DNA of 5,483 nucleotides from Caldilineaceae bacterium (GTDB taxonomy: Bacteria > Chloroflexota > Anaerolineae > Caldilineales > Caldilineaceae). Each line of letters opens with the position of its first letter. The stretch's first letter is position 1. Positions 1-5,483 of the stretch are shown piece by piece. The translations under genes were made by a program, and so were the position numbers. The notes beneath the pieces are model-generated. The model saw nothing but the letters and a program-made list of their open reading frames with translations, was not told the DNA's origin and ran no database searches. The DNA is taken from contig JAPPKT010000320.1 of NCBI GenBank assembly GCA_028819675.1, forward strand, positions 1 through 5,483. The letters are read 5' to 3'.

Positions 1-52
1 CGAGGAGGTTGGGGCTGTCTTCTTCGTTGACGATGGCGATGACTAACTTCAT
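1..52 (-). CDS. darA: Start of a PII-like cyclic-di-AMP receptor (DarA/YaaQ family), cut by the window edge
   Basis: Only the first 17 codons are present, reading MKLVIAIVNEEDSPNLL, and the gene runs off the low-coordinate edge. This matches the typical opening of the DarA/YaaQ (PstA, DUF970) family: a first beta strand starting MKL-hydrophobic-A-hydrophobic-V, then an acidic turn with D and a following N/R-L-L helix start. Family members are small (about 110 residues) cytoplasmic trimers with a PII-like fold that bind cyclic-di-AMP. In Bacillus the gene lies beside tmk, and a tmk end is also present in this window on the same strand, which supports the call. The ATG has no Shine-Dalgarno-like sequence before it; a period-7 A-rich repeat abuts it directly. 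The gene is 350 bases from the upstream glycosyltransferase stop, so it may have its own promoter, although none could be identified. Too little protein is visible to test ligand-binding residues. The family call comes from the N-terminus plus neighbourhood. Confidence 0.68.
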   Translation of the reverse strand, partial: MKLVIAIVNEEDSPNLL

Positions 53-402: not shown

Positions 403-3400
403 TCATCTGCCGTTGGCCTCATTCTCAAATTCGGAGAGAACGACTGAGTCCAGGCCTCTCTCCGTCATGATCTTGGGCGCGCCTTCCAGGGATACGTCGT
501 AGAGGCCGGCGATCAGGCGAAGGGGGCCGGGCGGCAGCGTTGCGGGCAGTTGGAGGGCAGTGCTGCTGAATCCTTCTGCCGAATTCAGCTGCAGGATTGG
601 GTCTGCCTGGGAAAGAATGCCGCCGGACTCGTTGAGCAGGTGGACGAATATTTTCTCCCCGCCGGTAAGAGTTGCTTGATCCCCTCTCCAGTCCATGTGC
701 AGGACCAGAATGGCGCCGGCGGTCAGCGTTTGCGGGCTTAGTTGGGCTTTCACCAGTGTAACGCCGTTTTCGAACAGTGCGTCCAACTCTTGCCAGCGCT
801 GCGGGTCGGGTCGGGCGTAGAGGTGCACGGGAAAGATGCCGACCTTCTCCTGCAGGACCTTTCGGAAGCCGGCGGCGAGTGCGTCGGGCGCGATGCCCGA
901 AGCGTCCCAGTTGGGAGCGGGCGCGGCAGGTAGAATGACCCTGAATACGTTGCTGCGGATGAGGGAATCGACCACCTGCGCGGCACCGTCGGCGTCATGG
1001 GGCCTGGGGGGAATCATGAATCGTTGGACGTCGCCTTTGTAGTAGTAGGCGAGGGTGGGGTCGGGGAAGTTCTCGGCGATGCGTACATCTTGTGTGGGCA
1101 TACCGAGGCTCCAGCGATCCAGCGTCCCGGCCAGGGCGCGCCACCCCAATGAACTGCCGCCAGAATAGTGGATGCGCAGGCTGTAGAGGTTGGCGGTAAG
1201 GACGAGGACAATCAGCGCGGCGGCGGAGATCCGGCCGAGCAAGATCCTTGCGAGAGGACTGGGGCGATGGGCTGCAGAATCTGGCCGGCTGCGTGCGCCC
1301 GTTTCACCGTCGACCCAGTAACGCCAGCGCCAGCTCAGGTGCGTGTCAACCCAGCAACTCATCCTGGTAGCGCTGACGGCTATCAGCAGCAGGAAAGGGG
1401 GCAGCGCGGCGACCAGATAGCGTTCGTCGAATATGGGACGCTGGCGTGCGCCGATCCAGGTGGCCAGGAGAGGGATGAACAGGTAGAAGAGAAGGAAAAC
1501 GGTTGCGCTTGACTGGCCGGGCAGAGTCTGCTGTTGGTCTTCGGCGCCATTTGAATGGCTCTCGTCGGTCTGGCTCTCGGGGTCCTGGCCCCCTTCGGTC
1601 CCGCTGCTGTTTTCGGTGCTGTCTCTGTTGCGGAGGCCAAGGGCGAGTCCGGCGACGATGATGGCCCCGGCCAGCAGGCCGCCGGCGAATCGCCAGATCG
1701 GATGGGGGACCGCTTCGCTCAGGGCAAAGACACCGAGGGAGCGCCAAAGCATTGCTCCGAAGGCGGGGGAATCGCCGTTACCGCCGTAGCGGACAAGTGT
1801 GTGCCAGGCGCTGACAAACCAGGGAGCGCATAGGGCAATGGTCAACAGTTGGGCGAGGGTCCAGCGTGTCAGCAGCGCGCCAGCGCCGGAAGGCCAGTTT
1901 TCGAGGGACTGGCCGGCGCGGCGCATCCAGAGGTTGCGCAGCAGCAGGAAGAGGAGAAAGGCGTTGTGTGCCAGGATGACGAATGCGGCGTAGTAATGGA
2001 CCTGGAGAGCGACGGCTGCGCAGAGGGCATAGGCTGCGGGAGCCGGCCAGAGCTTTGGCTGTCGGACAACGCGCAGGGCGAGGACTGTGGCGGCCGCGGT
2101 CAGCGCCAGGCTCAGCGAGTACATGCGGGCATCCTGGCTGTGCCAGATCGCGTAGGTGTTGGCGGCCAGGAGCAGGCTGGCTGTGAGGGCGGTCGGGGTG
2201 CCGAGGCGAAGCTGTTTGGCCAGGTGGAAGACCAGTGGGATGGCCAGCGTCCCGGCGAGGACGGGGATAAATCGCAAGGCGAACTCATGCGTTCCGGCGA
2301 GCTGGAGCCAGGCGTGCTGGAGGAAGTAGCTGCCGACGGGGTGGGGTTCTCGCATCTCCAACGTACGCGCCACGATCTCGGCAGGGGAGCTCAGGCTGAA
2401 GAAGAAGCCGAAGCTCTCATCGCCGCGAAGTTCGCGAAAGCCGAGGCGGAAGAGCCTTAGCAGAAAGCCGAGAAGGAGGACTGTCAGCAGGGCGCCGCGC
2501 TGGAGATGCTTGTTGGCCAGCGCGCGCTGGGCTGCGTGCTGACGATGCCGGCGGGCGAAGGGCGGCGCAGCGGGGCCTGCGAGCCCGGGAGAGGGTTGTG
2601 CCGGTTTGCGTTTGTGCCGGTCAAGCGAATCATGGGCGCGCTGCCAGGCGGTTCGGGCCGCGGCCAGTAGTTGAAGGCGAAGGGCAATGAACAGGCCGAC
2701 CCAGCCTACTGCGCTGGCGGCCAGGCCCCAGACTGCGCTGCGGGGTCGATAGACGAGTTCGAGGGTGCCGGATCCGGCGGGTACGGGTATGGCAAGGAAT
2801 GCCCGATGGGCGCGGGCCACCGGGAGAGAGTGTTCACCTTGCCAGCGGGCCTGCCAGCCGGGCAGCCACTTCTCGCTGAGGAAGAGGAGGCCGCGCTGTG
2901 CGCTCCGGATGTGGATTTGCAGATGCCCGGCGGCAACGCGTTCGACCAGCAGGTCGGCCTGGCCACCGTCGCCGAGGTTCATACGCCCATCCTGCCAGTT
3001 GTTTCCCAGCGCCTCGGCATGGGAGGGGGGGACCAGGAGCTCGTCACGGATGTTGAAGGCGGGGTCGGCCAGAAGGGCAAGGGCTTCGCTGTCGTCGACA
3101 GTGCGAGCGTTCTGGGTCCACCAGAGTCGAGGGGAGATCGACTCAAGCACGTGAAGGTAGGTGGTCGAGCTTTGCGGCCGGGGGAATTCGGCCAGCCGCT
3201 GGCTTGGGACGGGCAGCTCGTGCATCCAGGTGAGAACGGTGCCGGTTCCGGTCAGCTCCCACATGCGCTCGAGGGGGAAATCGGTGATGAAGGCGTTGTA
3301 TTTGGCGTGGCGGAGGGGGCTTTTGCCGAGGACGTCCTCCCAGCCGAGGAGCAGGCCGCTGTTGCGCGAGACGCGATGCTCGTTGTAGACGCGTGGCGGG

Positions 3401-5070
3401 AGCGAGTTGGGGCGTTCGGCGAGAGAGTGTGAGGCATCGAGCACGGCCGCGGCCTCTGGGGGCACCAGGCCATCTCTTACCCGCGGGCCGAAGGAATGGT
3501 TGGTTGCGAAGTTGACGATGAATAGGTCGAGCAGGGCCAGGGGGATCAATAAGATGAGGCGCGGGCGGGCGACCGGCTGGTCGCGAGCGAGTCGCGGTCC
3601 GGTCAGGATGGCGAAGGTGAGGGCGATGAGCAGTGTCATGACGCTGGGCCAGAGGAGGTCCGAGTCGGCGATGCCGGCGCGGGCGGGAAGCTGCCGCCAG
3701 GTCCAGAACGGGGTCAGGGCGGCAGCGACGGCGGCGGCGAAACCATAGCAGAGCGTTCGCCTGCGGGGCGCGGACAGGGTGGGCAGAAGCGCCAAGCCGT
3801 AGCCGCTGAGGACGCTCAGGGAGAAGGCAACGAGAAATATGGCCCGCTCCTGGCCTCGAAAGAGCTCGCCGCCGGGCGTGAACCGATAGAAGAGGCTGTA
3901 GAGCGGCAGTCTGCTGCCATAGGAGAGGAGGAGGGCGGCAGCGCCGCAGATTACGAAGTAGAAGGCGGCGGCACGGGCGTGGGGCGCGGCGCCTAGCCAG
4001 GAGAAATTGGATGAGAACAGGGTGACGACGGCGACGAGGGTCAGGCCAAGCGCCGCCACGCCTACGTATTGCGGGGCGTAGACCGTGAAGAGGCCGGGAA
4101 GCAGATATTGGAGTGTATCTCTGAAGGCGAAGCCGCCGCCGGCCTGCTGGAAGGTGAGGGAGGCGCGAACGGAGTGTTGTACGAATTCATAGACCGGCCA
4201 GAGCTGGGCCAGCGTCAGGATGACCAGGACGGTGACATAGGCGGTTACCAAGCCGGCGTACAGGAGTGCTCTGGCAGAGAGGGCCTTATAGACGGCCCTG
4301 CCGGCCGTGCCATTTCCTCGATGCCTGTTCAGATCGCTGGCGAAGAGCATCAGCATCCAGCCGCCGACGGCGTAGGAGAGGAAGAGAAAGGTCTGGGGAT
4401 GGCCGCCGAAGAAGGCGACGGCGTGCACGCCGGCCGCGGCCAGCCAGCGTTTCCATGGGGGGAATAGGCGGGAAAGGCCGGTAGCCGCGGGCGGTGCGTG
4501 GCCTCCAGCGGCGGTGTCTTCGGAGTTTCCCGTTCGCGCGCGGCCCGCCCCCGGCAGAAGGAGAAGGAGGATGGCGGGCAGCCAGACGGCGACGCGCAGG
4601 ATGCCGATCTGCACCGGGACGTAGCCGGTGATGTAGCCGGAGAAGCCGAAGATTGCGCCGGCAGTGAATGCGGCCATTTTGCTGCCGGTCAGGCGGCGGA
4701 CGAGCAGGTAAGTGAAGAGGCAGGCGAGAAAGATATGGAGGGCGGCCTCGACCTGCAGCCAGTAGAGCCTTCCCACGGGGCTGCGGTCGAAGCTTGTGAG
4801 GAGGAGCAGCGCGTTGCTGACAGGGTAGAACACGGCGGACTGGGCGTCGGCGAGGAAGGGGTGGCCGGAGAAGGTGTGCGGGTCCCAGAGGGGCAGCCGC
4901 AGGTCGAGGATGGCGGACTGTTGAAAGAGGCTGAAGGGCAGGAAGTGGCGGGTGAAGTCGCTGTCGGGGAAGGCGGTCAGGCCCAGCAGGTGGGGCGCGA
5001 AGAAGAGAAGGACGAAGGCGCCGTAGGCGAGGGCGACGGGAAAGGCCGGCGGCTGAAGCGGGCGCTTCAT
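403..5070 (-). CDS. Giant two-module GT-C membrane glycosyltransferase: YfhO-like module fused to ArnT/PMT-like (GT39) module
   Basis: The 1555-residue protein probably transfers sugars from polyprenyl-phosphate carriers to an envelope acceptor on the outer membrane face; donor and acceptor are unknown. Basic residues 2-3 precede the first helix (about 10-31), placing the next loop outside. YfhO-like traits in order are the loop with D36 and D38, PLWDPHTFSGHPFLADAQ (60-77), FGGHPQ (221-226), the PGGELFRGQER block (399-409), the RVYNEHRVSRNSG block (560-572) and the closing KWLPGWQARW domain (734-743) with a last helix near 780-800. A basic, proline-rich linker (805-858) follows. GT39-like traits are RGDESF with D884 and E885, REPHP (907-911), HSQDARMYSL (977-986), VHYYA (1024-1028) and FDERYL (1214-1219). 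Residues 1300-1555 are soluble and end in a probable beta-sandwich. The ATG is the only usual start codon after an in-frame TGA 16 codons upstream; no Shine-Dalgarno is visible. The ATG overlaps a preceding tiny ORF by four bases. Module calls are strong; activity and substrate are inferred. Confidence 0.88.
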   Translation of the reverse strand: MKRPLQPPAFPVALAYGAFVLLFFAPHLLGLTAFPDSDFTRHFLPFSLFQQSAILDLRLPLWDPHTFSGHPFLADAQSAVFYPVSNALLLLTSFDRSPVGRLYWLQVEAALHIFLACLFTYLLVRRLTGSKMAAFTAGAIFGFSGYITGYVPVQIGILRVAVWLPAILLLLLPGAGRARTGNSEDTAAGGHAPPAATGLSRLFPPWKRWLAAAGVHAVAFFGGHPQTFLFLSYAVGGWMLMLFASDLNRHRGNGTAGRAVYKALSARALLYAGLVTAYVTVLVILTLAQLWPVYEFVQHSVRASLTFQQAGGGFAFRDTLQYLLPGLFTVYAPQYVGVAALGLTLVAVVTLFSSNFSWLGAAPHARAAAFYFVICGAAALLLSYGSRLPLYSLFYRFTPGGELFRGQERAIFLVAFSLSVLSGYGLALLPTLSAPRRRTLCYGFAAAVAAALTPFWTWRQLPARAGIADSDLLWPSVMTLLIALTFAILTGPRLARDQPVARPRLILLIPLALLDLFIVNFATNHSFGPRVRDGLVPPEAAAVLDASHSLAERPNSLPPRVYNEHRVSRNSGLLLGWEDVLGKSPLRHAKYNAFITDFPLERMWELTGTGTVLTWMHELPVPSQRLAEFPRPQSSTTYLHVLESISPRLWWTQNARTVDDSEALALLADPAFNIRDELLVPPSHAEALGNNWQDGRMNLGDGGQADLLVERVAAGHLQIHIRSAQRGLLFLSEKWLPGWQARWQGEHSLPVARAHRAFLAIPVPAGSGTLELVYRPRSAVWGLAASAVGWVGLFIALRLQLLAAARTAWQRAHDSLDRHKRKPAQPSPGLAGPAAPPFARRHRQHAAQRALANKHLQRGALLTVLLLGFLLRLFRLGFRELRGDESFGFFFSLSSPAEIVARTLEMREPHPVGSYFLQHAWLQLAGTHEFALRFIPVLAGTLAIPLVFHLAKQLRLGTPTALTASLLLAANTYAIWHSQDARMYSLSLALTAAATVLALRVVRQPKLWPAPAAYALCAAVALQVHYYAAFVILAHNAFLLFLLLRNLWMRRAGQSLENWPSGAGALLTRWTLAQLLTIALCAPWFVSAWHTLVRYGGNGDSPAFGAMLWRSLGVFALSEAVPHPIWRFAGGLLAGAIIVAGLALGLRNRDSTENSSGTEGGQDPESQTDESHSNGAEDQQQTLPGQSSATVFLLFYLFIPLLATWIGARQRPIFDERYLVAALPPFLLLIAVSATRMSCWVDTHLSWRWRYWVDGETGARSRPDSAAHRPSPLARILLGRISAAALIVLVLTANLYSLRIHYSGGSSLGWRALAGTLDRWSLGMPTQDVRIAENFPDPTLAYYYKGDVQRFMIPPRPHDADGAAQVVDSLIRSNVFRVILPAAPAPNWDASGIAPDALAAGFRKVLQEKVGIFPVHLYARPDPQRWQELDALFENGVTLVKAQLSPQTLTAGAILVLHMDWRGDQATLTGGEKIFVHLLNESGGILSQADPILQLNSAEGFSSTALQLPATLPPGPLRLIAGLYDVSLEGAPKIMTERGLDSVVLSEFENEANGR

Positions 5071-5153: not shown

Positions 5154-5294
5154 TTACCGGTTCGTCAAGTAGACAATTCCGGCCAGTGCGCGGCCAAGTT
5201 GAGGCGCGTTTAGGTATAAGGGGTTGGACGAAGGCGCGGACAGGTCCCACAGGCGGACCAGGAGATGCGGAAACGGTGCTGATTTCACCTTCAT
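5154..5294 (-). CDS. Small 46-codon ORF overlapping the tmk stop; unknown, possibly a coupling ORF
   Basis: The ATG shares four bases (ATGA) with the tmk stop codon, the classic geometry for termination-reinitiation, and the TAA is followed at once by the ATG of the next tiny ORF. The peptide starts MKVKSAPFPHLLVRLWDL and has no recognised domain, no clear transmembrane helix and no signal peptide. About 70% of its third codon positions are G or C, lower than the strongly GC-biased codons at the start of the large gene, which argues against a long-conserved protein. No Shine-Dalgarno is visible. It is reported because of its junctions, not because of its sequence. It could be a small unstudied protein, a leader whose translation matters, or chance. 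Confidence 0.33.
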   Translation of the reverse strand: MKVKSAPFPHLLVRLWDLSAPSSNPLYLNAPQLGRALAGIVYLTNR

Positions 5295-5483
5295 CGGCTG
5301 GGCGCGGGGGCGGGGAGTTTGTGCTGGACTGCGCGGATGATGTCCTGATTGACTTCGTCGCGGGAGCGGCTGGCGTCGATGACGGTCCAGCGTTGGGGCT
5401 CCTGGGCGATGAGCTGGCGGTAGCCGGATTCGACGCGCTGGTAGAAGGAGAGCTCCTGGGCGTCGAGGCGGTTCCAGTCGCCG
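5291..5483 (-). CDS. tmk: Thymidylate kinase (dTMP kinase), C-terminal end only
   Basis: The last 63 codons are present, starting GDWNRLDAQELSFYQRVESG and ending APAPSR before TGA; the rest lies beyond the high-coordinate edge. Thymidylate kinase phosphorylates dTMP to dTDP with ATP in the cytoplasm, an essential step of dTTP synthesis. The family's C-terminal signature is clear: R-L-(D/E)-x-x-x-x-x-F-(H/Y)-x-R-V-x-x-G-Y, then a short helix, the EPQRW turn, the strand VIDAS, and a final helix with the pattern D-x-V-x-x-x-I. The frame has no stops or shifts. The stop codon is embedded in an ATGA overlap with a 46-codon ORF. Together with the darA start at the other end of the window, it matches the tmk-darA neighbourhood known from Bacillus. 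The P-loop and dTMP-binding residues lie outside the window and cannot be checked. Confidence 0.92.
   Translation of the reverse strand, partial: GDWNRLDAQELSFYQRVESGYRQLIAQEPQRWTVIDASRSRDEVNQDIIRAVQHKLPAPAPSR

Follow-up and report, generated by a model that had tools for sequence, protein, structure and literature searches.

In enzymes of the GT-C class, polyprenyl-linked sugars are used at the outer face of the membrane, and the tip of the first juxtamembrane helix bears a catalytic aspartate (PMC12041525, PMC11127046), with ALG6, ArnT, PglB and PimE given as cases in the former. According to a review of multi-component glycosylation systems (PMC8035078), the YfhO proteins of B. subtilis and S. 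aureus act in LTA glycosylation, GtlB (Lmo0626) is given with a PMT-2 domain and not with YfhO, and some smaller GT-C enzymes are speculated to need a second protein for acceptor recognition. A sequence-only reading of the present locus had counted GtlB as a YfhO protein, which that article contradicts, and had expected a different acceptor from the different lineage, although lineage by itself does not tell the acceptor. By description we liken the first half of the locus to 'Component 27' (PMC10584680), a bacterial YfhO-like GT-C annotated YfhO and linked to STT3/PglB-type enzymes; its median length is 665 aa and the accessible text describes no fusion, in contrast to the fused protein of 1555 aa reported here. 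Going by the entry titles among our structure matches, Pmt1-Pmt2 and EmbA-EmbB hold two GT-C units per complex, as here. Those are pairs of chains of one family each, whereas the window protein joins two families in one chain; AftD (6w98) has one GT-C core, not two.

The window is a 5,483-nucleotide stretch of a Caldilineaceae bacterium contig, and its features are collected in Table 1. The fused gene runs from its ATG start to its stop in a single frame on the minus strand (403-5070), and no stop interrupts the linker (aa ~801-858, nt 2670-2497). The claim that two complete GT-C units share one frame was borne out, by this frame of 1555 aa, by the models of the modules and by the relatives, 123 proteins being fused in a capped, query-biased set of 199.

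Table 1. Features of the window (positions on the 5,483-nucleotide stretch).
Feature	Positions	Strand	Basis
Fused gene, 1555 aa: YfhO-like GT-C module, linker, GT39/PMT-like GT-C module	403..5070	-	ORF, Pfam, homologue comparison
YfhO-like module, transmembrane GT-C core, aa 1-535	3466..5070	-	~13 membrane helices, by eye from model
D38 of the YfhO-like module, Asp with which the first juxtamembrane helix begins; candidate catalytic base	4957..4959	-	conservation and model
YfhO-like module ectodomain, beta-sandwich and PGW motif (P737 G738 W739), aa 536-776	2743..3465	-	model secondary structure; structural match of the sandwich, aa ~557-776
Last membrane helix of the YfhO-like module, aa 777-800	2671..2742	-	hydropathy scan and model
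Linker, basic, putatively cytoplasmic, aa 801-858	2497..2670	-	net charge across fused rows
GT39/PMT-like module, transmembrane GT-C core, aa 859-1303	1162..2496	-	~11 membrane helices, by eye from model
D884-E885, DE motif of the GT39-like module	2416..2421	-	profile alignment to the yeast Pmt4 DE pair
GT39-like module ectodomain, aa 1304-1555 and stop: alpha/beta part, then beta-sandwich	403..1161	-	
Thymidylate kinase (tmk), C-terminal part, upstream neighbour	5294..5473	-	tblastn 68% over 60 aa to L005 tmk; Pfam of the L005 gene
Cyclic-di-AMP receptor (CdAMP_rec/DarA-like), N-terminal 17 codons, downstream neighbour	2..52	-	tblastn, 17 aa at 100%; the L005 copy carries PF06153

The intergenic stretch at 95-394 holds a plus-strand frame (MTSWVGRPGFNR...), antisense to the gene, that recurs beside L005, L006 and L020, and an inverted repeat (gggcacc...ggtgccc) at about 308-328; it may be a conserved intergenic element or a small gene.

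The second half passed the Pfam threshold for PMT_2 (PF13231; aa 910-1049, 37.8 bits against a cut-off of 26.1), while PMT (PF02366) scored 16.4, below its cut-off of 22.7, and all NCBIfam matches were sub-threshold, including Agl23 (TIGR03663; 40.5 against 126.25). The first half reached 20.9 bits against YfhO (PF09586) over aa 710-784, under the cut-off of 28.5, and we therefore refer to this half as YfhO-like and not as YfhO. That assignment comes from relatives and from the modelled fold. L023 passes the cut-off at 52.8 bits in three stretches (L033 gives 16.8 only), the PGW-bearing C-terminal part of the window's half matches the end of the profile, and the fold is modelled as GT-C; differences from the YfhO family are the score under the cut-off, the joining to a second GT-C and relatives that belong to Chloroflexota. 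AlphaFold2 models of the modules, built separately, had pLDDT values of 87 (YfhO-like) and 84 (GT39-like), and the modelled cores of both halves match solved GT-C enzymes, which places both in that fold superfamily; a family missing from the fold-match lists was not counted as evidence of absence. A PDB sequence search with the window protein gave no match, and the profile of the YfhO half retrieved designed helical proteins alone (E 0.21), which we treated as chance. In the GT39-like half an Asp-Glu pair follows TM1, D884-E885 falling on the Pmt4 DE pair in a profile alignment of moderate local confidence. Compared with PMT_2/GT39-like GT-C proteins (PF13231; ArnT and Pmt4 folds), the module differs in sitting behind another GT-C, in its C-terminal ectodomain of ~250 aa and in the absence of the DE-motif Asp from the window's sister groups.

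Membrane crossings, read by eye off the models, number ~14 in the first half and ~11 in the second before the C-terminal ectodomain, and a plain hydropathy scan found 11 and 9 segments. Helix 38-55 follows TM1 in the YfhO-half model, and D38 and D884 each start the first juxtamembrane helix of their half. The linker, 22-70 residues long, has a positive net charge in 152/152 fused rows, which come from two alignments in which one gene may count as both a P and an L row. With the topology read from the models, short inside loops have a K+R density of 0.13 and short outside loops one of 0.089, a bias due largely to the linker; the acidic inside loop at aa 1148-1184 and the lower helix counts of the hydropathy scan speak against this topology. 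We tentatively infer that the first loops, with D38 and D884-E885, face outside and that the linker lies inside. Were this topology right, a GT39-first protein would join an outside C-terminus to an inside N-terminus, which could explain why the YfhO part comes first in 123/123 fused proteins of our query-biased set; the searches used YfhO-first queries and may have under-sampled reversed fusions. Separate adjacent genes in the order GT39-YfhO exist (e.g. L035, L043, L046, L054 and L058).

A search with the window protein returned 103 homologues, many of them full length, at 37-93% identity, and a profile of eight fused proteins gave 1060 matches, the best 120 of which were listed. The first search's list, 95 new proteins from those best 120 of 1060 and the window's own protein make up a query-biased set of 199, in which 123 contain both modules (each more than 60% covered), 13 are partial, 58 have the YfhO part only, 4 consist of little or nothing but the GT39 part, and the remaining one is the protein of the window. 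Named sources include MAGs of Caldilineaceae, Caldilineales, Anaerolineaceae and Ardenticatenaceae, most proteins being unlabelled; the relatives are almost all metagenome-assembled and many rows are close kin, so that row counts are not event counts. Public databases name fused proteins as, for example, 'glycosyltransferase family 39 protein', and among the titles and abstract openings listed by our searches of the open-access literature we saw no description of the fusion architecture.

Homologues that are always separate genes in close relatives, or a stop or frameshift in the linker, had been named beforehand as grounds for rejecting a natural fusion. Just a handful of relatives behave in this way, namely L005, L006 and L029 with a split at the linker and the unfused L030. 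Both modules share one frame in 24 of the 29 loci titled Caldilineaceae (among 64 loci); besides the three splits, the other five comprise L004, which ends with its contig, and L021, which is broken inside the GT39 part. Across a phylum sample of 301 genomes (the centre genome G001, picked for having the fusion, plus others drawn evenly), 18 match at E 1e-30 and both halves lie in one frame in G001 alone, with at most two candidates scored per genome and fusions possibly missed; the matched frames of the other 17 are 618-1017 aa long. The fusion is rare in its phylum in this sample, which agrees with the earlier statement that YfhO-like and GT39-like proteins are normally separate. Separate GT39-like frames of 754-765 aa are present in 4 of 10 genomes searched (G001, at C1:63693-65921, G002, G008 and G009); at 34-36% identity to the window's GT39 core and 47-51% to the window protein's last part, they may be relatives of the GT39 half that stand alone.

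The trees do not show that the fusion arose once. In both FastTree trees unfused rows stand between two lineages of fused proteins, one of 34 and one of 23 rows, a pattern that gain or loss could give, and starred branches force at least three and at least two changes between fused and unfused labels, some rows labelled single in those trees (L047, L049) having weak GT39-like frames alongside. All trees were quick or FastTree runs on chosen subsets (48, 48, 95 and 71 rows), each with a long-branch warning, and one alignment was repeated minus five rows, namely L026, truncated where its contig stops, and the products of four neighbouring genes at 20-22%, of which three are DUF2142-type and one is unassigned. 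P0107, a fused protein labelled Nitrososphaerales archaeon, clusters with P0083 in the L023 lineage, and its label is probably a binning error.

We observed different fates for the conserved residues of the two halves. D38, W62, D75, H224, Q226, E408 and R409 of the YfhO half are all present in 122/122 scorable fused rows (3/125 were unscorable), a score that is partly by construction because these residues were chosen from columns already invariant or nearly so, while six residues of the GT39 half are all present in 67/125 fused rows, the window's included. A fairer test used 46 later rows (44 from the wider profile search, P0087 and L042, of which only P0087 was also in the residue-picking alignment), and here D38, D75, H224 and E408 were kept in 46/46 and D884 in 44/46. 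P737, G738 and W739 are invariant or nearly so in the alignments. Among long rows, on which all group counts and identities are based, D884 is kept in 29/30 members of the window's group (A), 0/42 of group B and 0/8 of group C; R982 (29/30 in A) and R1217 (30/30 in A) are gone from all B and C rows, and H1025 falls from 30/30 in A to 18/42 in B and 0/8 in C. E885 is kept in 126/126 rows, including those lacking D884, and D38 in 77/77 rows of the three groups with a letter there (3/80 gapped) and in the 46/46 further rows.

Mean identity to the window in the GT39 core and the YfhO half was 35.5% vs 52.5% in group B, 35.4% vs 53.9% in group C and 73.5% vs 76.3% in group A, and Pfam still detected both PMT and PMT_2 in L017, a member of group C. 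In the GT39-half tree the 27 degenerate rows group together with support 100; in the YfhO-half tree they do not make up a single clade. For 13 chosen pairs, dN/dS of the GT39 halves was 0.16-0.35 in seven degenerate pairs vs 0.19-0.29 in six window-group pairs, which means that the degenerate halves are held by selection and are not decaying. Taken together, the residue patterns indicate that the GT39-like half of groups B and C has probably lost its activity; since E885 is kept throughout, the loss is likely and not proven. The sequence-only reading had offered two catalytic sites, or one active module and one scaffold, as alternatives, and both seem to occur, in different paralogs, with the GT39 motif intact in the window's group and lost in two sister groups. 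Its further suggestion of sequential or alternating transfer to one acceptor is conjectural.

The reading that we prefer, and hold with middling confidence, is that the protein is a tethered GT-C pair that adds polyprenyl-phosphate sugars to one extracytoplasmic glycan, and that its GT39 half has lost activity in two sister groups. Both active sites would lie on the outer membrane face, and each would draw on a sugar carried by polyprenyl phosphate and brought across the membrane by a GtrA-type flippase, the gene for which would lie elsewhere; GtrA (PF04138), the flippase type that a CsbB-GtcA-YfhO type multi-component glycosylation system would call for, scored above cut-off in 3/3 relatives' genomes tested, and no CsbB- or GtrA-like gene was present among the Pfam-identified neighbours of the fusion. 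It is the GT-C literature, the placement of D38 and D884 and the presence of GtrA in relatives that point to two outer-face transfers by a tethered pair. The beta-sandwich domains would bind the acceptor glycan, and the halves would act as a fixed 1:1 pair whose sugars go to identical or adjacent positions on a single extracytoplasmic glycan. The YfhO-like site would be the family's constant activity and the GT39-like site a second, optional one, retained in the window's group, whereas in groups B and C the GT39-like half may have become a partner or an acceptor-binding pseudo-enzyme. The covalent tether would mainly set stoichiometry and co-insertion and would be dispensable.

Naturally occurring splits bear on the role of the tether. 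In L005 and L006 the gene is split within the linker by an ATGA overlap, the TGA stop of the first half lying over the ATG of the second, at position 12457 in both; their YfhO halves are each 83% identical to the window's and share the alignment gaps at the split. L029, a group B copy, is split by an ATGA overlap at position 12436, and L030, from another Anaerolineae MAG, is an unfused pair with a GTGA overlap at position 2715. The two halves can therefore probably do without a covalent link, for which coupled translation may be an adequate substitute. In a separate observation, a YfhO-like frame at L032:9679-13813 is followed by GT39 fragments in shifted frames, possibly a further split copy, and the window-type copy L021 has a frame break inside its GT39 core (12984-13489), either an assembly error or decay. 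Modules also differ in history between copies: dS between L005 and L006 is 0.07 in the YfhO half and 0.38 in the GT39 half, a sign that one half was replaced; identity between P0030 and P0033 is 49-70% over aa 1-700 and rises to 79-96% after that, and between P0062 and P0045 it is 42-62% up to aa 900 and 74-100% from there on. Some copies thus look like mosaics, with modules exchanged between copies.

These same data can be read as two independent enzymes that share a transcript and a chain, the fusion serving co-expression and equal dosage and each half having its own acceptor, which we regard as possible but rather doubtful. The overlapping unfused pair, the three splits, the recombining modules and the frequency of YfhO-only relatives (58/199 in the query-biased set) all fit such independence. 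However, purifying selection on a GT39 module that has lost its motif suggests that it has a role for the YfhO half, and topology or the YfhO-first queries could account for the invariant YfhO-first order of the fused proteins.

Next, we compared the surroundings of the paralogs. The 12 window-type loci (L001-L006, L010, L020-L022, L027 and L037) have tmk upstream in 12/12 cases and darA downstream in 11/12 (L004 ends first); in all 12 an R3H/ATPase-domain gene lies upstream of tmk, with just its end on the contig in L004. A degenerate B-type locus is also present in the assembly of each window-type locus (12/12). A strict link between loss of the GT39 site and a window-type copy was ruled out by four degenerate loci, L014, L017, L018 and L025, whose draft assemblies yielded no window-type copy, so a degenerate copy need not have a partner. 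A second genomic place, with a putative rsuA, cmk and an E1 dehydrogenase gene upstream and an aminotransferase gene downstream, is occupied by 16 loci: 13 belong to group B, L017 and L018 to group C, and L033 has an intact GT39 motif. The B-type L025 lies in a place different from the other group B loci. No glycan gene cluster appeared among the identified genes around the window-type or the second place.

Just downstream of the fusion, tblastn found a DUF2142/PMT-type GT-C gene in 13/13 group B loci at the cmk-aminotransferase place (14768-17068 in L012) and did not find it at L017, L018, L033 or the window-type loci. The degenerate group may therefore have a third, separate GT-C. In the main degenerate group, this adjoining gene might have taken over the lost GT39 activity, an explanation compatible with the other readings that we nonetheless judge unlikely. 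Its distribution fits, a PDE motif is present in four aligned copies, and the L012 copy scores over the Pfam cut-offs for PMT_2, PMT and DUF2142; on the other hand, L017 and L018 of group C and L025 are degenerate without that gene at that place, and co-location does not prove replacement.

The unequal residue conservation could also mean that the YfhO-like half alone is enzymatic everywhere and that the GT39-like half, also in the window protein, serves as a GT-C scaffold for acceptor binding or stability. The unbroken set of YfhO-half residues and the incomplete GT39-half set in 58/125 rows are consistent with this, and PMC12041525 mentions as a structural homologue PIGU, a GPI transamidase subunit whose fold is similar and whose function differs. 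A pure scaffold would have no need of these residues, yet the window's group keeps D884 and R982 in 29/30 rows each and H1025 and R1217 in 30/30, and D884 persists in 44/46 further rows, which makes this explanation improbable. An assembly chimera or frame artefact, suggested by the frame breaks in some relatives (L005, L006, L021, L029 and L032), has a negligible chance of being correct and is refuted for the family by the recurrence of the same architecture across many separate assemblies. Three of the contigs concerned are titled as chromosomes (L001, L027 and L033), and two of these (L001 and L027) carry the fusion between tmk and darA as in the window.

Returning to the tethered pair, we tentatively propose, as a possibility well short of the pairing itself, that one half of the chain is on its way to becoming a pseudo-glycosyltransferase. 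A genome keeping both the two-site and the one-site version could then use a single scaffold for a pair of related glycans, or for a longer and a shorter form of one glycan, and the degenerate half would assist the YfhO-like half by binding the acceptor or allosterically. What is new here is the unequal fate of the residues in the two halves, the paired degenerate copies in 12 assemblies, the ATGA splits together with module swaps and, more tentatively, an argument from topology for the module order. Collectively, a one-chain GT-C pair with splits, swaps and the loss of one motif set amounts to a series of natural experiments, some of them within one genome, through which the question of GT-C partners and that of non-catalytic GT-C folds in bacteria become testable by point mutants.
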